Shown piece by piece: positions 1,087-36,990 of a DNA stretch of 59,756 nt. The DNA lies in contig BJGX01000005.1 of the NCBI GenBank assembly GCA_014191035.1, positions 1 through 59,756 on the forward strand, given 5' to 3'. The notes beneath the pieces are model-generated. The model made no database searches, was not told the DNA's origin, and was given only the letters and a program-made list of their open reading frames with translations. A program made the translations under genes and the position numbers. The DNA is from Candidatus Saccharimonadota bacterium. Lineage in GTDB: Bacteria; Patescibacteriota; Saccharimonadia; CAILAD01; BJGX01. Positions within the stretch are counted from its first letter, which is position 1. Each line of letters starts with the position of its first letter.

Positions 1087-1166
1087 GCATTCTCCTTGTG
1101 GTAGGTACAGAACCAGAGTATTCTACATCAAATCACAACTTTTGTCATTATGATCTATTCTATACA

Positions 1167-23087: not shown

Positions 23088-24521
23088 CTATCTAAGCTGG
23101 TCGGTTAGCAACTTGGCCTTTGCTTTGCCCAAAACTTTCGCAATCTCTACTTCAGTAGCATCCTTCACTCCGGCAACGCTACCAAAAGCTCTTATTAATT
23201 TCTTACGAGAAGCCGGGCCGATACCGCTTATTTCTTCAAGCTGTGATTTTTTAATTCTTTTAGCTCGAACAACAGTGTGGTAACTTACAGCAAATCTATG
23301 AGCCTCATCGCGAATCCTTTGGATCAGATGAAGTATAGGCGAATCAGATTCAAAATTAATCATATAGTATTCACCTTCTCTCCTTAGTGATTGTGGAGAT
23401 GGCAAATCATTGGCATCAACTACAATCGTTTCGTAGCGTTTAGCCAGGCCGACCGTCATTATGTCGATTTCTGACTCTTTCAGGGCCTTTTTGGCGCTAG
23501 ATAACTGCCCCTTTCCACCATCGATAATAATTAAATCTGGCTTTGGCCAAGATTTATTTCGCTCACTAAACCTACGACTTAATGTCTCTTTCATCATTGC
23601 AAAATCATTTGGGCCTTTTGTCCGCATCTTAAAATGTCGATACTCCCTATTGTTTGGTAGTCCATCTGTAAACACCACCATCGAACTAACACTATCGCCC
23701 CCAGCAAAGTTACTGATGTCATAGCACTCGATACGTCTAAGTTTCTTTAAGTTAAGAATTTCGCTTAATCCCCTGAGGGCAATATCTACACCAATTACCA
23801 GCTTTTCTTCACCCCCAAAAACTACTCTGGTATTTAAGGCTTTAAGGGCCAAATATTGATTTCTAAATTCAATTGCTTCTTCATACTTTTGCTTCTTTGA
23901 AAGTTTATCTATATCTTTTTTTAGTTGATCAATCAGCTTAGTGCTTTTCCCCTCCAAAACCATTATCAGTTTTCTAATTTGCTTCTTATATTCAGTTTTG
24001 GAGATATCTGGCCTTGGCAATACTCCTATTTGGTATTCAAGCTTAGAGCTATATTTGTGCTTCTCTTTAACAAAGTAAGGAAATGCTTTTCTTAGATATT
24101 TTAGGGCCTGTCTGACCCCATAGCTATTTATGAATGGCCCAAAATACTTAGCCTTGTCGTCCATTGGCCTTCTTACTAGTCCAACTGTTGGGAAATCATC
24201 TTGCATAGTTATACGAATATAAATAAAGTTTTTATCATCTCTTTCGCGAACATTATAGAGTGGTTTATGCCTTTTAATTAGCTCGGCTTCTAAAAATAAT
24301 GCTTCAACTTCAGAATTAGTCTCAAGCCACTCTAGATCTGCAATGTTTTCCACCAATAATGGTGTTTTGTAGTCACTGTGCTTTTTACTAAAATAAGACT
24401 TAACTCTACGGCGTAGTATCGAGGCCTTACCGATGTATATAATTTTGCCCTTTTTGTCTTTAAACAAATATACACCCGGCGTCTTGGGCAAATTATCTAG
24501 TTTGTTAGCAAGCTTATTCAT
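23088..24521 (-). CDS. uvrC: Excinuclease ABC subunit C
   Basis: LPKTPGVYLFKDKKGKIIYIGKA, LIIIDGGKGQLSSA, HhH end; start moved to internal ATG since the extended ORF runs into the neighbouring promoter. Confidence 0.96.
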   Translation of the reverse strand: MNKLANKLDNLPKTPGVYLFKDKKGKIIYIGKASILRRRVKSYFSKKHSDYKTPLLVENIADLEWLETNSEVEALFLEAELIKRHKPLYNVRERDDKNFIYIRITMQDDFPTVGLVRRPMDDKAKYFGPFINSYGVRQALKYLRKAFPYFVKEKHKYSSKLEYQIGVLPRPDISKTEYKKQIRKLIMVLEGKSTKLIDQLKKDIDKLSKKQKYEEAIEFRNQYLALKALNTRVVFGGEEKLVIGVDIALRGLSEILNLKKLRRIECYDISNFAGGDSVSSMVVFTDGLPNNREYRHFKMRTKGPNDFAMMKETLSRRFSERNKSWPKPDLIIIDGGKGQLSSAKKALKESEIDIMTVGLAKRYETIVVDANDLPSPQSLRREGEYYMINFESDSPILHLIQRIRDEAHRFAVSYHTVVRAKRIKKSQLEEISGIGPASRKKLIRAFGSVAGVKDATEVEIAKVLGKAKAKLLTDQLR

Positions 24522-24612
24522 AAACTCTATTATACCCCCAACGAGCTTATAGTTTAATTTTGTAGTAATCTGTTCTATGATATCAGCATCGCACCTTACT
24601 ATCGGGGGGAGC

Positions 24613-24876
24613 ATGAAGCTCGAATCAGTATTAAATGGTTATTGCTGTAATGATCAAAAAGCAATTTTGCTGTTAGTACTTATTTATTCGCATACGCTTG
24701 TGCGTCTTGAAGAAGATCCTAAACTAGTCTTTCTTCAAACAAGAAAACAAGAATTCCTAGAGGGCCTAACAATCAGCTCCCTTCAAATTCCAAGCTGCAT
24801 AATTGAATCTATAAATTCAAATCCGCTAGATTGGTTCTGTCAAACTATGGAATACTTAGACAAAAACAATATATAG
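24613..24876 (+). CDS. Small orphan family protein A
   Basis: 87 aa from GGGGGGAGCATG; terminator downstream; resembles the other four proteins at its C-terminus. Confidence 0.65.
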   Translation: MKLESVLNGYCCNDQKAILLLVLIYSHTLVRLEEDPKLVFLQTRKQEFLEGLTISSLQIPSCIIESINSNPLDWFCQTMEYLDKNNI

Positions 24877-24902
24877 CCCCTGCATACGTGGGGGCTTTTC
24901 AA

Positions 24903-24931
24903 TTGAAAAATAAAAAATATATGTATATAAT
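24903..24931 (+). promoter_or_regulatory. Promoter TTGAAA-17-TATAAT of small protein B
   Basis: Consensus-like boxes with 17-bp spacing. Confidence 0.75.
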
Positions 24932-24960
24932 CTTACTTCCGTACCTTCAAAGGAGCAAAA

Positions 24961-25248
24961 TTGAGCGATAGCGAAGTAGTAAAGCTATATAAAAGCTTTC
25001 CAGCCAAGCACCGAGATCAGTTCTATCAGCTGCTGCTAATTTATGTGCTCAACCTTAACACATGGCAGTGTAGCGACCGAACCAACAAAGATGCCTTTGG
25101 TCAAATTCAAAGTTCACTTAAGTATCTGAAGCATGAACCATTTAATCTAAGTACTGAAATGCTCGAAAGAATTGTCGATAATCACGAAGACTGGATGGCA
25201 GACTTGATGGAAATGGATAAGTTTAATGGGAAAACCCAGATACAATAA
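24961..25248 (+). CDS. Small orphan family protein B (TTG start)
   Basis: AAAGGAGC SD; HEPFNLSTEMLERIVDNHEDWMADL. Confidence 0.75.
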   Translation: MSDSEVVKLYKSFPAKHRDQFYQLLLIYVLNLNTWQCSDRTNKDAFGQIQSSLKYLKHEPFNLSTEMLERIVDNHEDWMADLMEMDKFNGKTQIQ

Positions 25249-25537
25249 TCCCAGATCCTTTATCGAGTCGTACGACATTGAACTGCGAGGTAAGTTAGCA
25301 GTTAAGATTTTTCTTTTTTGTGTTACTCAAGGAAACTGGAAGGAACAATCCAATGATGATTATTGGCATATAAGCTCCATATACAACCCAAAGTCCCCTG
25401 CTTACAAGCTAAAGGCCGAGCTTACATCAGAGCCATTCAACCTAAATGATTTTGTAATCATTTCAATTAAAGAAAATACAGTAGAATGGTTGACTGAGTC
25501 ATGTATGATTTGGGATGACTACATTAAAGCCTCATAA
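25226..25537 (+). CDS. Small orphan family protein C
   Basis: Overlaps B by 23 nt; SEPFNLNDFVIISIKENTVEWLTE; terminator follows. Confidence 0.75.
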   Translation: MGKPRYNNPRSFIESYDIELRGKLAVKIFLFCVTQGNWKEQSNDDYWHISSIYNPKSPAYKLKAELTSEPFNLNDFVIISIKENTVEWLTESCMIWDDYIKAS

Positions 25538-25553
25538 GAACGAGGCTTTTTTT
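25526..25553 (+). terminator. Terminator after C
   Basis: aaagcctcataagaacgaggctttttttatttt. Confidence 0.8.
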
Positions 25554-25623
25554 ATTTTTATGCTTGCATAATGTAGCCTTACTTATATAGTAAAAGTGCA
25601 GGCAAACCTAGAAAGGCTTGACT

Positions 25624-25887
25624 ATGAACCTTCAGGATCTAATTGGGCGATACCCTAGCGAACAAATTGATGAATTAAAAAGACTGATTCGAGAATTTAT
25701 CAATTGCGAGCTGCAAATTTACATCGGAGATACTCACCTGCGCAGCTGGGAAGAAGAAGACTCGCGCTTGCGAGCCCAAAAGATTGCATTGGTACTGCGT
25801 GGGCCTCCTTGGGGGATGAGCATCGAAGATCTTGAATACCTTTGCGACAACGCCCAGGAAATACTTAATGAGCTTAATCGCTCTTAA
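25624..25887 (+). CDS. Small orphan family protein D
   Basis: GAAAGG SD; GPPWGMSIEDLEYLCDNAQEILNEL; own promoter and terminator. Confidence 0.75.
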   Translation: MNLQDLIGRYPSEQIDELKRLIREFINCELQIYIGDTHLRSWEEEDSRLRAQKIALVLRGPPWGMSIEDLEYLCDNAQEILNELNRS

Positions 25888-25920
25888 TATAAGACCCCGA
25901 ACAATTCGGGGTCTATTTAT
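25888..25920 (+). terminator. Terminator after D
   Basis: aagaccccgaacaattcggggtctatttatttt. Confidence 0.85.
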
Positions 25921-25931
25921 TTTCTGAAATT

Positions 25932-26265
25932 ATTATCTTCTCTTTACCGCATAACCAGTTGCAAGTATGCCGCCTAGTACTAGTAGTCCTGCTATAAGCG
26001 CTGGGGTTTTGGCATCCCAGCCGGTTCCGGCCAGTGTTCCACCGCTACCACCACTGTCTGGGGTTGGGTAAACGTACTCGTAAGATCCACTGTCTGCCAA
26101 GGCTGCCTGTGGGCGTGTAACACCACGCTGATCAATGCTTGGGGTTGCAGGGCTACCTGCTACAGCATTTTCAAGTGCAGGTGAGCCTGCCTGAAGTGGC
26201 AAAACAAATGTGTTTCCAACCTGCTGGTAAGCACCTAGTAGTGGGTCGGTAGAGTTTTTATCATT
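25932..26265 (-). repeat. 334-bp identical 3' module, copy 1 (pairs with 27263..27596)
   Basis: Line-by-line comparison showed no differences. Confidence 0.93.
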
Positions 26266-27264
26266 GGTGGCGATAAATAGAGTATTACAAGTATCATCGT
26301 TAGATATATTTCCACCATCACTTGTCAGGGTTGCGTTTTCACCAATACTTGTGACACAGTTACCTGGAGTTGTTCCGTCTGTTCGTTTATTACTACTAAA
26401 TATATTGTTTCTTAGATTAAGCGATGCGGAGAAATAAGCCGGGTCAGAACCTAAGTTGACTATGAATGGTTCATCAACAAATTCAGCATAATATTTATTG
26501 TTTACGACTGTATTATTGTAGAAATTTGCTGTTGACTGACCCTCGGCATCTACCGAATTTTGTATAGCCAATATCGAAGAATTATTGTTATAAATTGTGT
26601 TATTAAAAACATTCATTGTAGCGTTTCCAGAGGGCCCTTCATTAACTGTCCTTATGTTACCAATCAAAAAGAAGGCTGTATTTTCAGTAAAAACACTATT
26701 GGAGATAGTCGTATTTATTCCTGCTGCAGAAAAAGTCACTGCAATAGCACATACTGGCGTAACACCAACACATGTGTTGTTTTTAATTATTAGTTTATTG
26801 AGTGTAACATTACCAGCAGCATTATTTATTAATGCAGCCCCTGGATCAGTTGGGCTAAAGTTCTGGAATGTGAGGTTCTCTATTAGATAGTTGCCGGTTG
26901 TTGCCACAACTACACCAGAAAAGCCTGCACCATCAATAATTGTTGTGGTGGCGTTTTCTCCAACTACAGAAATATTACCAGGATTAACTATATATCCCAA
27001 ACTAGCTGACAAAGTATATGTGCCGGCGCCAACATTAACGGTATCGTCACCATCTCCTGCTGCACAACTACCCACGGGGGTATCAGTAGCCGCTGCCTCA
27101 AGTGCTTCTTGAAAACTACAAGCACTAGAAGGAGTTACATTGTATGTTGTGGCTTCTGCTTTGGGGGCAAATGCTAATTGAGAAAGTAGCCCTACGACCA
27201 ATATACTAATAATAACTGTTGCGCGGGATAGTAACTTATACTTCATAAGGTTCATTTCAAACAT
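25933..27264 (-). CDS. Secreted parallel beta-helix surface protein with LAxTG-like C-terminal anchor (copy 1)
   Basis: Signal peptide; repeated NNTIYNNN turns; C-terminus LAGTGWDAKTPALIAGLLVLGGILATGYAVKRR. Confidence 0.85.
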   Translation of the reverse strand: MFEMNLMKYKLLSRATVIISILVVGLLSQLAFAPKAEATTYNVTPSSACSFQEALEAAATDTPVGSCAAGDGDDTVNVGAGTYTLSASLGYIVNPGNISVVGENATTTIIDGAGFSGVVVATTGNYLIENLTFQNFSPTDPGAALINNAAGNVTLNKLIIKNNTCVGVTPVCAIAVTFSAAGINTTISNSVFTENTAFFLIGNIRTVNEGPSGNATMNVFNNTIYNNNSSILAIQNSVDAEGQSTANFYNNTVVNNKYYAEFVDEPFIVNLGSDPAYFSASLNLRNNIFSSNKRTDGTTPGNCVTSIGENATLTSDGGNISNDDTCNTLFIATNDKNSTDPLLGAYQQVGNTFVLPLQAGSPALENAVAGSPATPSIDQRGVTRPQAALADSGSYEYVYPTPDSGGSGGTLAGTGWDAKTPALIAGLLVLGGILATGYAVKRR

Positions 27265-27596
27265 TATCTTCTCTTTACCGCATAACCAGTTGCAAGTATG
27301 CCGCCTAGTACTAGTAGTCCTGCTATAAGCGCTGGGGTTTTGGCATCCCAGCCGGTTCCGGCCAGTGTTCCACCGCTACCACCACTGTCTGGGGTTGGGT
27401 AAACGTACTCGTAAGATCCACTGTCTGCCAAGGCTGCCTGTGGGCGTGTAACACCACGCTGATCAATGCTTGGGGTTGCAGGGCTACCTGCTACAGCATT
27501 TTCAAGTGCAGGTGAGCCTGCCTGAAGTGGCAAAACAAATGTGTTTCCAACCTGCTGGTAAGCACCTAGTAGTGGGTCGGTAGAGTTTTTATCATT
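27263..27596 (-). repeat. 334-bp identical 3' module, copy 2 (pairs with 25932..26265)
   Basis: Line-by-line comparison showed no differences. Confidence 0.93.
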
Positions 27597-28589
27597 AGTC
27601 GAGGTAAAAATAGAATTACAGCTCGTATCGTTGGAAATATTGCCACCATCACTGGTTAATGAGCCATTTTCACCTACCAGACTACCACAATTATAAGGTG
27701 CGTCTGCAAGGCTTACATTGTTGTAGAAAATATTATTTCTCATGTTAAGAAAAGCACCAAAATATGTGTCTGGGCCAACGTTAACGCTAAACATTAAATC
27801 TACAAATTCAGCGTAAGGCTTGTTTTGTACAATTGTATTGTTGTAGAAATTTAAAACAGATTGGCCCGGTGAAGCATCTGTATTTGAAGCACCCGCTATT
27901 CCAGCGTCGTTATCGTAAAAAGTATTATTAAAAACGTTCATTGTAGGACTGCTTGCAGTGCCTTCTATGGCTGGCACTCTGGCGTTTGCAATCAGGAAGA
28001 ACGCAGTATTGTTGTAAAATACACTATTTGAAATCGTGGTATTCACCTCAGCTGGACCAAGCGTTAAGGCAATAGCGCAGACAGGTACTGTACTAGTACA
28101 AGTATTATTTTTGATAATTAGCTTATTGGCTGTAACATTACCAGCAGCATTTAATATTAGAGTATTACCATCTCCATCTGAGACGAAGTTTTGAAAAGTT
28201 AGATTTTCAATTAGATAGTTACCTGTGGCACCAACGATAATACCTGCAAAGCCAGCACCATCTATTATGGTATTGGTGGCATTTTCGCCAATTATTGAAA
28301 TGTTTCCAGCTGTTACCAAGGGGCCTAGATCTGCTGATATAGTGTATGTTCCTGCTCCAACGTTTATAGTGTCGTCTGCATCGCCAGCGTCACAACCACC
28401 TACAGGAGCATCAGTTGCGGCTGCGGTTAAGGCGTCTAAAAAACTACATGCACTAGAAGGAGTTACATTGTATGTTGTGGCTTCTGCTTTGGGGGCAAAC
28501 GCTAATTGTGCCACAAAAGCTAAAATTAAAATTACCATCGCATAAACCATGGTACTTAATTTACTTATAAAACTGTTTTTTGTTTCCAT
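27264..28589 (-). CDS. Secreted parallel beta-helix surface protein with LAxTG-like C-terminal anchor (copy 2)
   Basis: Tandem paralog of copy 1; TAATG overlap with the downstream gene. Confidence 0.85.
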   Translation of the reverse strand: METKNSFISKLSTMVYAMVILILAFVAQLAFAPKAEATTYNVTPSSACSFLDALTAAATDAPVGGCDAGDADDTINVGAGTYTISADLGPLVTAGNISIIGENATNTIIDGAGFAGIIVGATGNYLIENLTFQNFVSDGDGNTLILNAAGNVTANKLIIKNNTCTSTVPVCAIALTLGPAEVNTTISNSVFYNNTAFFLIANARVPAIEGTASSPTMNVFNNTFYDNDAGIAGASNTDASPGQSVLNFYNNTIVQNKPYAEFVDLMFSVNVGPDTYFGAFLNMRNNIFYNNVSLADAPYNCGSLVGENGSLTSDGGNISNDTSCNSIFTSTNDKNSTDPLLGAYQQVGNTFVLPLQAGSPALENAVAGSPATPSIDQRGVTRPQAALADSGSYEYVYPTPDSGGSGGTLAGTGWDAKTPALIAGLLVLGGILATGYAVKRR

Positions 28590-28618
28590 TAAAATTACCG
28601 CTCCTTTGTATATTGAAT

Positions 28619-28647
28619 ATCATAAGTGTTTTAGGTTAACAGCGCAA
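28619..28647 (-). promoter_or_regulatory. Promoter TTGCGC-17-TATGAT of the surface-protein operon
   Basis: Read on the minus strand upstream of the 28589 start. Confidence 0.65.
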
Positions 28648-28654
28648 GTACTTT

Positions 28655-28662
28655 GGGGGGGG
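28655..28662. repeat. Poly-G8 (poly-C8 on minus) homopolymer
   Basis: ctttggggggggctgatg; 8 bp from the predicted -35 box. Confidence 0.9.
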
Positions 28663-28725
28663 CTGATGTTTCATATTTTAATTTTTTAGGTTATAGTTTT
28701 TAGTTGATTCGTACCTAGGAGCCAA

Positions 28726-28992
28726 ATGCTACTCGAGCCGGTGTGTAATAATGTACAGCCTTCTTTCAGGTCTGCTTTAAAAAATGAAATTCTTAGATTC
28801 GCCAATGCCCACCTTAGAATGCAAAAGCCCTATTCAAAGCTAGAGCCTGAAGACTTTGAAAAACTCAAAGAAAGCGCAGCTTTCTCGGCAGCTAGGCTCA
28901 AAAACCAACCATTTTATATTTCCACAGATCTAATATCCCAGATTGCTGCTAACCCAGAACCCTGGATAGACGAAATATATGATGCCTTGTAG
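28726..28992 (+). CDS. Small orphan family protein E
   Basis: CTAGGAGC SD; NQPFYISTDLISQIAANPEPWIDEIYDAL; TTTCAT-17-TATAGT promoter; terminator downstream. Confidence 0.75.
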   Translation: MLLEPVCNNVQPSFRSALKNEILRFANAHLRMQKPYSKLEPEDFEKLKESAAFSAARLKNQPFYISTDLISQIAANPEPWIDEIYDAL

Positions 28993-29020
28993 CCCTAAAA
29001 TTATTTAGGGCTATTTTATT
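28990..29020 (+). terminator. Terminator after E
   Basis: tagccctaaaattatttagggctattttattt. Confidence 0.8.
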
Positions 29021-29054: not shown

Positions 29055-29921
29055 ATGTGGATTGTATACTCAGTTCTATGTGCCCTTAGCGATAGTTTAG
29101 CCAGTCTTTTTAACAAGCAGTTGGTTTCAAAAAAACAAGACGCTTTTTCTATATCTGTTTTTATTCATGGCTTTGGAGCTATTACTATGTTGGTTGTAGG
29201 TATTGTTACATCGGAAAAGCTTTTAGTTTTACCATTAAATGCCTTCTTACTACTTATAGCTACCGCAGCCTCTGCCGCCGCAGCTGGCGTAATACTGCTT
29301 TTGGCACTCAAAAAGGGCGATTTGTCTCTGATTGCTCCTATTCAGACAATTACGCCGTTGTTGATACTTATAATTGCGATATTCTTTTTGAATGAAGCTC
29401 CCAAGCCAATTGGACTTGCTGGAATAATGCTGGTTGTAATAGGCGGAATATTATTAGACAAAAGCCCTAAAGAAAGTTTTAGATCAATCATGATTAGAAT
29501 TGTAACTTATAAGCCTGCGCTACTTGGTGTGGCTGCGGCGGCACTCTATGCGCTTGCTTCTGTCTTTGATAAGGGTGGGCTAAAGCTAGTTAGTGTAGGC
29601 GTTTGGATATTTTATGTTTACTTTTTTGTATTTTTATTTGTACTACCTGTGGTTTTAATTAAAAAACGTAAGGAATTTGTGAAACTAAAAAAGCACAAGA
29701 GGCTACTACTTAGCTCTTCGGTGTTCAGTGTAGCTGCAATTTACTTGCAACTTCTGGCATTAAAGACTGCATTAGTAACCTATGTTCTTTCAATTAAAAG
29801 ATTAAGCTCCGTATTTGCAGTAATTTTGGCTTATTTGGTCCTAAACGAAAAGAAAGCGCTCTTTAGGTTAAAGGGCGCAATACTAATGGTGGTGGGTGCA
29901 ATACTTATCGGTATAAGTTAG
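29055..29921 (+). CDS. EamA/DMT-superfamily transporter
   Basis: 10-TM pattern; YVLSIKRLSSVFAVILAYLVLNEK. Confidence 0.88.
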   Translation: MWIVYSVLCALSDSLASLFNKQLVSKKQDAFSISVFIHGFGAITMLVVGIVTSEKLLVLPLNAFLLLIATAASAAAAGVILLLALKKGDLSLIAPIQTITPLLILIIAIFFLNEAPKPIGLAGIMLVVIGGILLDKSPKESFRSIMIRIVTYKPALLGVAAAALYALASVFDKGGLKLVSVGVWIFYVYFFVFLFVLPVVLIKKRKEFVKLKKHKRLLLSSSVFSVAAIYLQLLALKTALVTYVLSIKRLSSVFAVILAYLVLNEKKALFRLKGAILMVVGAILIGIS

Positions 29922-31366
29922 TCTTTGCGCTTTTTGGCTTGCGCTACAACTAAGCTCATGCGTGGATTGCTTTTAAATCTTTCTATGTTATTTTTGATAA
30001 ATTTCCAGTAAAGCTTGGTAAATTCACTGTTTTGCGCATCCCTGAGGCTAGGCCACCAACCACCCATTTTTTGTAAATAATTACCCCCAGAAACATAAGG
30101 TTTAGTGGCAGTAAAGCCTCCGTCGGCATATTGGCTCATACCATAAACATTTGGAACCATTACCCATTCGTAGGCATCGACATACATACTACTAAACCAC
30201 TCATACACTTCGTGGGGATTGTAACTGTTTAATAAAAACCAATTGCCCAAGACCATTAAGCGCTCAATGTGATGATTATATCCGTATTTGAATGTCGTCT
30301 TGAGCACAGCAGATACTGGCAGTTCCAAATCCTCGGGCAACTCACCACCATACCACCAAGGCTCTAATTTCTTTTTATAGCCAAAATAGTTTTTTAGAAG
30401 ATTATCTGATTTATACATATACAAGCCATACATATATTCTCGCCAACCTATTATTTGGCGTATGAACCCTTCGTATGAATTAATGGGAACTTTGCCTTTC
30501 AAATAAACCTTTTCTGCTTCAGCCAGAACTTCGGTAGGAGTAATTAAGCCAATATTTAGTAGTGGCGATATAACTGAATGAAATAAAAACGCCTCACCAT
30601 TACGCATCGCGTCCTCATAGGCTCCAAAATTTTCGAATCGGTCTTTAATAAAATACCCAAGCCAACGTTTTGCTTCGGGTTGCGTTGTAGGCAACCAAAA
30701 GTCTTTGCTACTACCTGGATTATTGGCAAATAATTTATCGATTGTTTTTGCTGAATCTGCAAAATCTCTAGGAGAAACACTGGGTAAGCTTGGAATTTTA
30801 GCAGTCTTTGGTAGTGGCTTTCGGTTTGAATCGTCATAGCTCCATTTACCCCCAACTGGCTGTCCATTCTTCATTAAAACATTCATGCGCTTTCTTTGCC
30901 ATTTATAAAAGCTATCCATTATTGGGTTATTTTTTTCTTCAAACCAGTTTTCGAGATCCTTTTGAGGGGTTAGGAATTGTTCGTTGGCAAGTATTTCGTA
31001 ATCCAGCTTGAGTTTATTAGCAGTTTTTGTAAGCCCAGCATTCGGCCCTTTATCGGATGAGCTCATCCAAACAAGCTTGTTAAATCTGCGAGATTTAATA
31101 ATCGACTCTAGCTCACTATTGAAATTGCTGCCCCTTTTTAGCTCGACATAAATTAGATTTCTTTTTTCATTTTTTAGATACTTTTTGTAATTGCGCATCG
31201 AAGCCATTATCAAAATAAGTTTGTGCTTGTGATAATTATGTTTTTTAAACAAATTATCAGCTTCAATCATAATTATGTTTGAGCTTGGGTATTTTTTTAG
31301 TGCTGGGTGTTCCGCTAAAAGCTGGTTGCCTAAAATTACAATCGCTGTTTTATCTAGCTCAGCCAT
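29918..31366 (-). CDS. FeS-BCP-type cryptochrome/photolyase-related protein
   Basis: NHHIERLMVLGNWFLL, YVDAYEWVMVPNVYGMSQYADGGFTATKPYVSGGNYLQKM. Confidence 0.9.
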   Translation of the reverse strand: MAELDKTAIVILGNQLLAEHPALKKYPSSNIIMIEADNLFKKHNYHKHKLILIMASMRNYKKYLKNEKRNLIYVELKRGSNFNSELESIIKSRRFNKLVWMSSSDKGPNAGLTKTANKLKLDYEILANEQFLTPQKDLENWFEEKNNPIMDSFYKWQRKRMNVLMKNGQPVGGKWSYDDSNRKPLPKTAKIPSLPSVSPRDFADSAKTIDKLFANNPGSSKDFWLPTTQPEAKRWLGYFIKDRFENFGAYEDAMRNGEAFLFHSVISPLLNIGLITPTEVLAEAEKVYLKGKVPINSYEGFIRQIIGWREYMYGLYMYKSDNLLKNYFGYKKKLEPWWYGGELPEDLELPVSAVLKTTFKYGYNHHIERLMVLGNWFLLNSYNPHEVYEWFSSMYVDAYEWVMVPNVYGMSQYADGGFTATKPYVSGGNYLQKMGGWWPSLRDAQNSEFTKLYWKFIKNNIERFKSNPRMSLVVAQAKKRKD

Positions 31367-32739
31367 TTTTTGGCGTATGCCTCCACATCGAATTTATTTT
31401 TGAGTCCGTTATAGTTCATATATCGAATTTTTCCAAATATTGGCTGTTCAAACCAGGGCCTGTCGTGCAATCCACCAATTGACCATAGAACCCCTACGTA
31501 ACCATTCGGGTCTCCACCGTCGATAGAATAATGATCGTTTAAATAATTAGCGTGTTTTATAGCTATTTTAGGACTTGGGCTCCATTCCAAAATCTTCTTT
31601 GCCCAATACATTCGCATGTAACCGTGCATTTTGCCAGTCTTTGAAAGCTGAGCCTGGGCAGCATTCCAGGCATCATCGTGAGTTTTATAACTTTCTAAAT
31701 CTTTTAAACTATACTCGTACTCACGATTGTCATGTATGTGTTCTTCCAGGGACTTTTTAGCCCAGTCTTTGATACCATCATAATTTTTATAATTAGCATT
31801 GTTGTTGCAATAATTATCTGCAAGCTCTTTTCGAACAATTAATTCCTCCAAAAAGGCGTCGATACTATCACCTATTGTTGGTGTGCCTTCATAGCGAGCT
31901 AGCCTGACTTCTTTTATAAGTAATGGTATATGATTTTTTGTAAGTTCTAACGCTACCCTTAATGATGATATCTGCCCGAAGTGCAAATAAGGACTTAAGT
32001 TGCTTTGCCCATCAACATTCGGATTATTTCTGTCTGCGGCATAATCAGGCAGTCGATTTTTAATAAAATCATTTAGCTCATTTTGGGCATGCTTTTCACC
32101 TGATTCGAATTCAATTTTGCTGCCATTGGATTTTTGTTTGTTTACAATCTGCTCGAATTTTTTCCAATCTGCTTTGCTGGTTGATTTCTTAGATTGCTTA
32201 ATAATTTTTAGAGGCTCAACTAACCATTCCTCCAGAAGCTTATGCACCTTGCCCCTAAATGTATGGGCTGCAAACTCTTCCTTATCTGAAGCTACCCAAG
32301 TCGGTATTATGTTGTGTGTGTCAACTACTTCAACTTTATATTCAGCATTTTTTGCTATGTAGTTTTTCTGATCCTTTGGACCATTTAAAGGGCTAAAATC
32401 AAAAACGACCGCAGCTGGATTTAATTTATTTATTTCTTTTAGTAATGATTCTTTATTGTCTTCGAAAAATAATATGAATCCAATATTTAATTTTTCAAGC
32501 TCTAGCTGAACTTCTTTTAGACCATCGTACATAAACTGATAATGTTCTTTGGACCTATCACCAGTTCTGGATAAGACATTGAAAACAACAACTAGTGGCA
32601 GTTTTGCTTCTCTTGATATTTCCAGAGCACGAACTAAGGCATGGTTATCATGAACCCTTTGATCGCGACTCATAACGTAAATTACATGCTCGCCATCTGA
32701 TAAACCTTTGTCATTTAAAGCGCTGGCTCTTTTTTCCAT
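31354..32739 (-). CDS. phr: Deoxyribodipyrimidine photo-lyase, class II-like
   Basis: VIYVMSRDQRVHDNHAL; LSPYLHFGQIS; MHGYMRMYWAKKILEWSPSP; YSIDGGDPNGYVGVLWSIGGLHDRPW. Confidence 0.92.
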   Translation of the reverse strand: MEKRASALNDKGLSDGEHVIYVMSRDQRVHDNHALVRALEISREAKLPLVVVFNVLSRTGDRSKEHYQFMYDGLKEVQLELEKLNIGFILFFEDNKESLLKEINKLNPAAVVFDFSPLNGPKDQKNYIAKNAEYKVEVVDTHNIIPTWVASDKEEFAAHTFRGKVHKLLEEWLVEPLKIIKQSKKSTSKADWKKFEQIVNKQKSNGSKIEFESGEKHAQNELNDFIKNRLPDYAADRNNPNVDGQSNLSPYLHFGQISSLRVALELTKNHIPLLIKEVRLARYEGTPTIGDSIDAFLEELIVRKELADNYCNNNANYKNYDGIKDWAKKSLEEHIHDNREYEYSLKDLESYKTHDDAWNAAQAQLSKTGKMHGYMRMYWAKKILEWSPSPKIAIKHANYLNDHYSIDGGDPNGYVGVLWSIGGLHDRPWFEQPIFGKIRYMNYNGLKNKFDVEAYAKKWLS

Positions 32740-34176: not shown

Positions 34177-36990
34177 TTATTTAAGAAGTTTCTTAAGATA
34201 TTTGCCAGTATGAGAATCTTTTATTTGAGCGATTTGTTCAGGAGTGCCAGAGCCCAAAATGGTTCCGCCCTTGCTTCCACCTTCGGGGCCTAGATCGATT
34301 ATCCAGTCTGCACTCTTTATAACATCCAAATTATGTTCAATAATAAGTACTGAGTTTCCCATTGCGACCAGTGCATCTAAAACTTCTAAGAGCTTTTTAA
34401 CATCTTCAAAATGAAGGCCAGTTGTGGGCTCATCTAGAATATATAACGTTCTACCGGTTGCACGCCTGCTAAGTTCTGATGCAAGCTTAATTCGCTGGGC
34501 TTCACCACCCGAAAGAGTTGTGGCGGGCTGACCGAGCTTAATGTAGCCAAGTCCAACACTCTTTAAAGTTTCAAGTTTTCGACTGATGCTCGGTATATTT
34601 CCAAAAAAGTCACAAGCTTCTTCAACGGTCATTTCAAGAACGTCAGAAATATTTTTGCCTTTATAGACAATTTCTAAAGCCTCACGATTGTAACGCTTAC
34701 CTTTACATACGTCACAGGTCACGTAAACATCTGGTAAGAAATGCATTTCGATTTTTATAATTCCATCGCCCTTACAGTTTTCGCAACGCCCACCTTTTAC
34801 ATTAAAGCTAAATCGTCCAGCACTATAGCCTCTGATTTTTGCTTCGGACGTCATCGCAAACAGTTCACGAATATCATTAAATGCTCCGGTATAAGTTGCT
34901 GGGTTACTACGTGGGGTTCGGCCAATTGGGCTTTGATCGATATCGATAACTTTATCTAAATTTTCAGTTCCTTCAATTGCCCTGCATTTACCGGCTGGTT
35001 CTTGACTACGGTGATATTCTTGGCTTAGGCGTCGCGCTAAAATGTCATTAATTAATGAGCTTTTGCCAGAGCCAGAAACGCCCGTAACCACTGTCATTAT
35101 TCCCAGAGGAATCTCGGCAGTTACGTCTTTTAGGTTGTGCTCGGTTGCACCAATTATTTTAAGCGACTTACCATTTGACTTACGTCGCTCTTTTGGAACT
35201 TCAATTTTTTTACTGCCACTTAGGTACTGGCCTGTTAAAGATTCTTTTACTTTGGCAACTTCGGTTGGGGTACCTGCAGCCACAACTTTACCGCCATGTT
35301 CACCTGCAGCCGGGCCAATATCTATTACGTAGTCTGCCATACGAATTGTGTCTTCGTCGTGCTCCACAACAATAACTGTGTTGCCTAGTGCCTTTAGTCG
35401 CATAAGAGTAGAAATTAATCTGTCATTATCACGCTGGTGCAAACCAATCGAAGGTTCATCGAGGATATACAAAACACCCATCAAGCTTGACCCAATTTGG
35501 GTAGCTAAACGGATTCGCTGGGCCTCACCACCTGCTAAAGTATTCGCACTTCGGTCAAGACTTAAGTAGCTTAAACCAACATCATTTAAAAATGTTAGGC
35601 GAGCTAGAATTTCTTTTGTGATTTGGTTAGCAATTTTTTGTTGTTGTTCGCCAAGCTTCAGTCCATTGTAGTAAGAGAGGGCATCTTCGACTGTCATTTC
35701 GGAGATATCAGCGATTGATTTATTATCGATAGTAACTGCAAGCACCTCGGGTTTTAAGCGTTTACCATTACATGTCCCGCAGATTTGGCTCGTCATGTAT
35801 TTTTCGATTTCTTTCTTAACAAAATCGCTGTCTGTTTCTCGGTAGCGACGTTCTAGGTTCGGAATAATACCTTCAAATTTGGTTTTATATGTTCTGCCTC
35901 CAGGGCCTGGCACGCCAATCTCTTCATCACCAGTACCATACAAAATTGTGTAAAGCTGATCGTCTGTAAGCTGATCTACCGGTTTTTCGATACTAAATTT
36001 GTGAGCTTTGGCCACTGCCTGAACTAACTTGGTGTACCAATTAAGTCGCTGGGTGGTTCTGCTCCATGGCCGAATTGCACCCTCAAGTATGCTTAAGTTT
36101 CTGTTTGGAATTATAAGCTCTGCATCGATTACCAAAAGCGATCCTAGACCCATACAGCTTGGGCAGGCACCGTGCGGAGAGTTAAAACTGAATAGTCTTG
36201 GTTCAATCTCCGGAAGAGCAAAATCCGAATCTGCCGTGGTGTAATGCTCTGAATATAATTTTTCTTCATTAGTGTCATAATTGAGCACACTTATAACGCC
36301 CTCGCCCAAATGCAAAGCCGCCTCAACTGATTCAACCAAGCGCTGAGGATTATCTTTGTCGATAGTTAATCTATCTGTGACTACCTCAATAGTATGCTTC
36401 TTTTGCTTATTAAGTTTAGGAACTTCATCAATTGGAATGATATTTCCATCAAGACGCACACGACTATAGCCGGCCTTTTGAATTTCTGAAAGCAAATGAA
36501 CGTGTTCACCTTTTTTGTCTTTTACAATTGGCGCTAAAAGCACAACCTTGGTATTTTTAGGATATTCAAAAATTAAATCTACGATTTGCTGAGGAGTCTG
36601 TTTGGTTAAAACTTCACCTGTTTTTGGATTATGCGGGACCCCTACACGAGCAAATAAAAGTCTCATATAATCATAAATTTCTGTAACTGTCGCAACTGTA
36701 CTGCGTGGGTTTCGGCTAGATGATTTTTGATCAATTGAAATAGCCGGGCTTAAGCCCTCTATCTGGTCGACGTCTGGCTTTTCCATTAGCCCTAAAAATT
36801 GGCGCGCATAAGCACTCAGGCTCTCAACATATCGACGCTGACCTTCGGCGTAGATAGTATCAAAAGCCAAAGATGATTTACCACTTCCAGAGAGTCCAGT
36901 AATGACCACCAACTTGTCGCGCGGTATTTCGACATCGATGTTTTTGAGGTTATGTTCTCTAGCACCCTTAACAATTATTTTATCGTGCAT
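34177..36990 (-). CDS. uvrA: Excinuclease ABC subunit A
   Basis: Duplicated ABC signatures and zinc-finger CXXC motifs. Confidence 0.98.

Follow-up and report, generated by a model that had tools for sequence, protein, structure and literature searches.

An orphan family of small proteins held between uvrC and uvrA in one order of Saccharimonadia and expanded locally in one genome

The window, by which we mean the whole 59,756-nucleotide stretch analysed, is contig C5 of a 685-kb genome (G000) with a completeness of 94%. From left to right, uvrC (minus strand) is followed by four small ORFs, A, B, C and D (plus), two choice-of-anchor Q surface-protein genes (minus), a fifth small ORF, E (plus), and an EamA transporter gene (plus), and the order then continues on the minus strand with a photolyase-related gene, a photolyase gene, a third surface-protein gene, uvrA and uvrB. 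The names uvr, EamA and photolyase were assigned by sequence inspection. All five plus-strand ORFs described in an earlier note on this DNA are present.

23088..24614, minus strand: uvrC, the conserved left anchor of the interval (ORF as listed; the true start is likely near 24521)
24613..24876, plus strand: ORF A, 87 aa, probably the most-diverged member, with a G-rich Shine-Dalgarno-like stretch upstream and its own terminator
24961..25248, plus strand: ORF B, 95 aa, a member with a TTG start and an AAGGAG Shine-Dalgarno sequence
25226..25537, plus strand: ORF C, 103 aa, a member overlapping the 3' end of B
25624..25887, plus strand: ORF D, 87 aa from ATG, apparent ortholog of the single-copy gene in relatives
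25933..27264, minus strand: choice-of-anchor Q surface protein 1 (NF041518, E = 2.1e-13) with a LAGTG sorting signal, accessory interval content
27264..28589, minus strand: choice-of-anchor Q surface protein 2, tandem duplicate of protein 1
28726..28992, plus strand: ORF E, 88 aa, a member with an AGGAG Shine-Dalgarno sequence, divergent from the surface-protein gene at 27264-28589
29055..29921, plus strand: EamA-type transporter, which adjoins the small gene also in genomes G002, G005, G008 and G011
29918-32739, minus strand: photolyase-related (DPRP-like) gene and photolyase gene
34177..36990, minus strand: uvrA, the conserved right anchor of the interval

The photolyase-type genes lie inside the uvrC-uvrA interval (29918-32739), so that light-repair and excision-repair genes stand together. 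G012 has a truncated EamA transporter gene, with ∼60 of 288 residues matching (locus L015, 485-757), and lacks the photolyase genes in the stretch from the small gene to uvrA. Elsewhere in the class, other orders have a rhodanese-like gene, also named by inspection (L085, L086, L087), beside uvrC in the uvrA-uvrC interval in place of the small gene.

Homology among the ORFs was assessed with leave-one-out HMMs, with 306 real ORFs as decoys and 10,500 shuffles for comparison. The scores were 55 bits for D, 36.5 for B, 32.8 for E and 22.7-26.3 for C (best shuffle, 17.0 bits), and no decoy or shuffle reached any of the four; D also scored 55.6 bits against a profile built from foreign orthologs only. 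These comparisons show that B, C, D and E are homologous. ORF A is unsupported with the wide profile (2.9 bits, with 743 shuffles equally good) and shows a weak signal with a profile restricted to B, C, D and E (10.6 bits, with 0 of 2000 shuffles as good); together with a predicted AlphaFold topology like that of D, this makes A a probable family member. The earlier description of five paralogs thus stands for four of them and is only probable for A. The C-terminal consensus proposed with it likewise fits B, C, D and E, whereas A lacks the P-[FW]; across genomes the block is clearest as L[RK]xPPWxLSxxxLxxI.DNxxxW. The small ORFs have no flanking repeats in common, and an origin as a cassette or integron-like array was rejected on that ground.

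A profile search of the genome itself yielded only these copies, and the five-copy expansion was seen in this genome only among those searched; relatives normally carry a single copy fixed in the uvrC-uvrA interval. Within the same GTDB family, 10 of 12 other genomes have one copy, nine of them found by profile (G003 weakly at first) and the other, G004, by inspection of the interval and then by profile. The two family genomes with no copy, G001 and G007, are incomplete; no uvrC was found in either, and in G007 the uvrA match extends as far as the end of its contig. In other families of the order, copies in G015 and G016 are profile-supported (19-24 bits, above every decoy and shuffle), the small ORF of G014 matches in position and strand only, the sequence giving no support, and in G013 uvrC and uvrA are 32 bp apart, leaving no room for the gene. 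Profile searches of ∼380 genomes of the class and ∼380 of the phylum gave no convincing match outside the order; the named relatives picked up by the family profile are MAGs of Patescibacteria or Saccharibacteria, two carrying the label UBA4664 and two coming from deep Lake Baikal. Weak class-wide matches outside the order (E 0.002-0.04) were partial and mostly lay in long unrelated frames or ran across stops, a match in Acidobacteria (L062) lay inside another, methyltransferase-like frame and was set aside as chance, and viral contigs held no relative of the family. In each of the 14 genomes examined, the small gene and any anchor sharing its contig are on opposite strands; nine of these genomes have both anchors on that contig and five have one. 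Among the genomes searched, the family is restricted to one order of Saccharimonadia.

The dN/dS ratios of two close ortholog pairs, 0.12 (G002/G012) and 0.24 (G006/G010), show that the gene is translated and constrained. Its divergence nevertheless far outpaces that of its neighbours: between genomes the small protein is 20-44% identical where UvrC is 57-87% identical. The tree places D with orthologs from another genus and unites A, B, C and E with weak support (82/75), so that D looks like the vertical ortholog and the other four look like local duplicates; the alternative in which all five copies form one clade was not rejected (p-AU 0.157), long branches being a known danger here.

No member matched Pfam, NCBIfam, PHROGs or PADLOC above a curated cut-off or with a convincing E-value; the best values were sub-threshold and inconsistent between members, the best of all being a Topo-V HhH match in one relative (E 0.0011, below cut-off). 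PDB sequence profiles gave no match, and Foldseek searches of PDB and BFVD reached at best E 0.65 with nothing naming a function. That the ORFs belong to no named family, as had been supposed, is borne out by these searches, and the helical N-terminal half read from their sequences agrees with the AlphaFold models of D and A. The AF2 model of D (pLDDT 88, pTM 0.79) has predicted helices at residues 3-7, 12-33, 41-59, 67-75 and 77-86. That of A (pLDDT 91) has five helices in the same order and topology; its input alignment included the family, so the model is biased towards a D-like answer and not independent, and the shared five-helix topology of the two modelled members is to be read accordingly. 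All members are acidic (pI 4.1-5.5, charge -2 to -15). Inspection revealed no signal peptide or membrane helix, which suggests a cytosolic location.

The explanation that we favour, at somewhat less than an even chance, is that A to E belong to an orphan family confined to the order, whose members are cytosolic, acidic, all-helical proteins of ∼90 residues that act by binding a partner protein, and that this family has been amplified here. The small gene would be a fixed resident between uvrC and uvrA in one order of Saccharimonadia; D would have been inherited, and A, B, C and E would stem from an old local duplication in this genome followed by divergence. The acidic charge, the small helical fold, the lack of a visible signal peptide, the combination of constraint with rapid change, and the amplification together argue for a protein-binding role with a changing partner. 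Members may thus act in the manner of an adaptor, an antidote or a regulatory subunit whose partner changes quickly, and the copies may have diversified in function. We infer this mechanism from size, charge and fold class only.

The surface proteins that adjoin the small ORFs here, a pair already pointed out in the earlier note, are choice-of-anchor Q proteins with an LAxTG sorting signal, and an LAxTG-type choice-of-anchor Q protein also stands beside the small gene in G005. In G003, G006, G009 and G010 the small gene lies directly downstream of a large or giant secreted-protein gene on the same strand, in G006 one of 2921 aa with a CBM, a Peptidase_S74 domain and a sub-threshold H-lectin match. 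These neighbours favour a cytosolic chaperone or accessory factor for giant secreted surface proteins, an explanation that we consider unlikely. No secreted protein adjoins the small gene in G002, G004, G008, G011 or G015, and the gene keeps its own promoter-like leader even behind a giant gene. Like the family, the FliS-type export chaperones are small helical bundles, and they appear among the Foldseek matches (1orj, 1ory); these matches are, however, insignificant (E 2.7 or worse), no cognate substrate was recognised, and the small gene is not always beside a secreted protein. The interval holds other secreted-looking proteins in G014 and G016 and nothing besides the small gene in G004 and G015. 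With its content so varied and the small gene constant, the interval behaves as a site of turnover for accessory secreted proteins in which the small gene persists. The claim that the array is tied to surface proteins therefore does not carry over to relatives, where the gene is normally single and, in at least five of them, has no secreted neighbour, nor is there consistent synteny with LAxTG proteins, since choice-of-anchor Q proteins occur away from the small gene in G005, G008, G014 and G016.

Across the order, the uvrC-uvrA interval is a hot spot of secreted and surface proteins, ranging from none to giants of 2000-2900 aa that carry CBM and S74 domains (L012-L017, L029-L031, L049, L082-L084). 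Within the window, the tandem surface-protein genes are 100% identical over 300 nt at their 3' ends (25932-26231 and 27263-27562) and 70-80% alike in other stretches, which suggests recent gene conversion between them.

The following putative transcription and leader signals accompany the small ORFs:

24903..24931, plus strand: sigma-70-like promoter of the B-C unit (TTGAAA-17-TATAAT, 11 of 12 consensus matches)
24875..24896, plus strand: intrinsic terminator after A, 9-bp stem and T run
25526..25549, plus strand: intrinsic terminator after C, 8-bp stem and T run
25892..25914, plus strand: intrinsic terminator after D, 10-bp stem
28989..29014, plus strand: intrinsic terminator after E, 11-bp stem
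24941..24945, plus strand: GTACC leader element of B, a motif upstream of family genes
28711..28715, plus strand: GTACC leader element of E, the same motif

Promoter-like sites in the region are no more numerous than in shuffles, and the B-C promoter is accordingly assigned from its position. The terminators behind A, C, D and E and the promoter ahead of B make A, B-C, D and E the likely transcription units, and because C starts inside the end of B, the two are probably translationally coupled. GTACC occurs within 60 nt upstream of 10 of 16 family genes as against 2 of 145 other ORFs, usually placed closely behind a -10-like hexamer and immediately ahead of the Shine-Dalgarno sequence. Over a 377-kb sample of the G000 genome, that layout precedes seven genes, B and E included, the highest count among all 60 permutations of the word (mean 1.1). 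The element is thus enriched, and a few unrelated genes share it. Sites with the full leader (-10, (C/T)GTACCT, Shine-Dalgarno) lie at 24941-24945, 28711-28715 and 1104-1108 (minus strand) of the window, at 404 in L131, at 18323 and 19019 in L134 and at 18965 in L135; the ACCT could pair with the Shine-Dalgarno sequence, and a regulon or translation control is possible.

In G006, G009 and G010 the GTACC element is half of a perfect palindrome, GTACAAT-N9-ATTGTAC, that overlaps the -10 of the small gene and is found with zero mismatches nowhere else in 13 genomes. The palindrome and the leader counts speak for a DNA-binding protein that regulates itself or the interval by binding at its own promoter, which we find improbable to the same degree as a chaperone. 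The palindrome is absent from G000, and GTACC leaders also precede unrelated G000 genes, which means that the small protein need not be what binds the element. Every member is acidic, and the last two predicted helices of D are one residue apart, which would seem unlike a helix-turn-helix; both features weigh against the regulator reading.

An immunity-like or antidote array, in which each copy neutralises a different toxin (of a rival, a phage or a host) and copies therefore multiply and diverge, would account for proteins that are small, acidic, helical, fast-evolving and locally amplified, but is in our judgement quite unlikely. No recognisable toxin gene lies among the neighbours here or in the intervals of relatives, PADLOC and Pfam gave no immunity match, and most relatives have a single copy at a fixed place, unlike such arrays. 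The immunity proteins of class IIa bacteriocins are cytosolic four-helix bundles of ∼90-110 aa. They offer a lead in size, location and fold; the family nevertheless has no sequence match to them, none appears among the listed Foldseek matches, and no bacteriocin gene was recognised beside A-E. The immunity or regulator array suggested beside the surface proteins is accordingly unsupported by synteny, and its specific role remains a guess. A broader form, a recognition or antidote module fixed between uvrC and uvrA in an order of symbiotic Saccharibacteria and evolving rapidly along with hosts, phages or rivals, with a five-copy repertoire here beside host-facing surface proteins, seems to us just as doubtful.

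A modulator of UvrABC nucleotide-excision repair would fit a gene kept between uvrC and uvrA on the opposite strand across the order, with photolyase genes in the interval here, but is very unlikely: the small protein diverges fast against far stronger conservation of UvrA and UvrC, G013 of the same order has no room for the gene, and other orders lack it. Spurious ORFs or chance similarity, to which only A's failure with the wide profile would lend weight, are extremely improbable and are refuted for B to E by ortholog dN/dS well below 1, conserved signals, synteny across genera and HMM scores above all decoys.

Orphan genes are typically narrow in distribution, small, without library matches and quick to diverge, and orphan families are common in Patescibacteria. 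The protein-binding family favoured here resembles the orphan small-protein families of Patescibacteria/CPR in all four respects and differs from them in its fixed syntenic position over an order, its shared leader element and its local five-copy amplification. We regard the family as a true orphan that carries a synteny tag and has expanded locally; its position, its pace of change and its leader element are unusual. The tag (uvrC, an opposite-strand small gene, uvrA) tracks extreme divergence where sequence search fails and supplies a concrete set of orthologs. Patescibacteria genomes are very small and their bearers here probably host-dependent, yet this lineage keeps, and in this genome multiplies, a gene that changes fast and has no known relatives. 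If its partner is a host, phage or rival factor, the family would provide a rare handle on the interactions of these symbionts.
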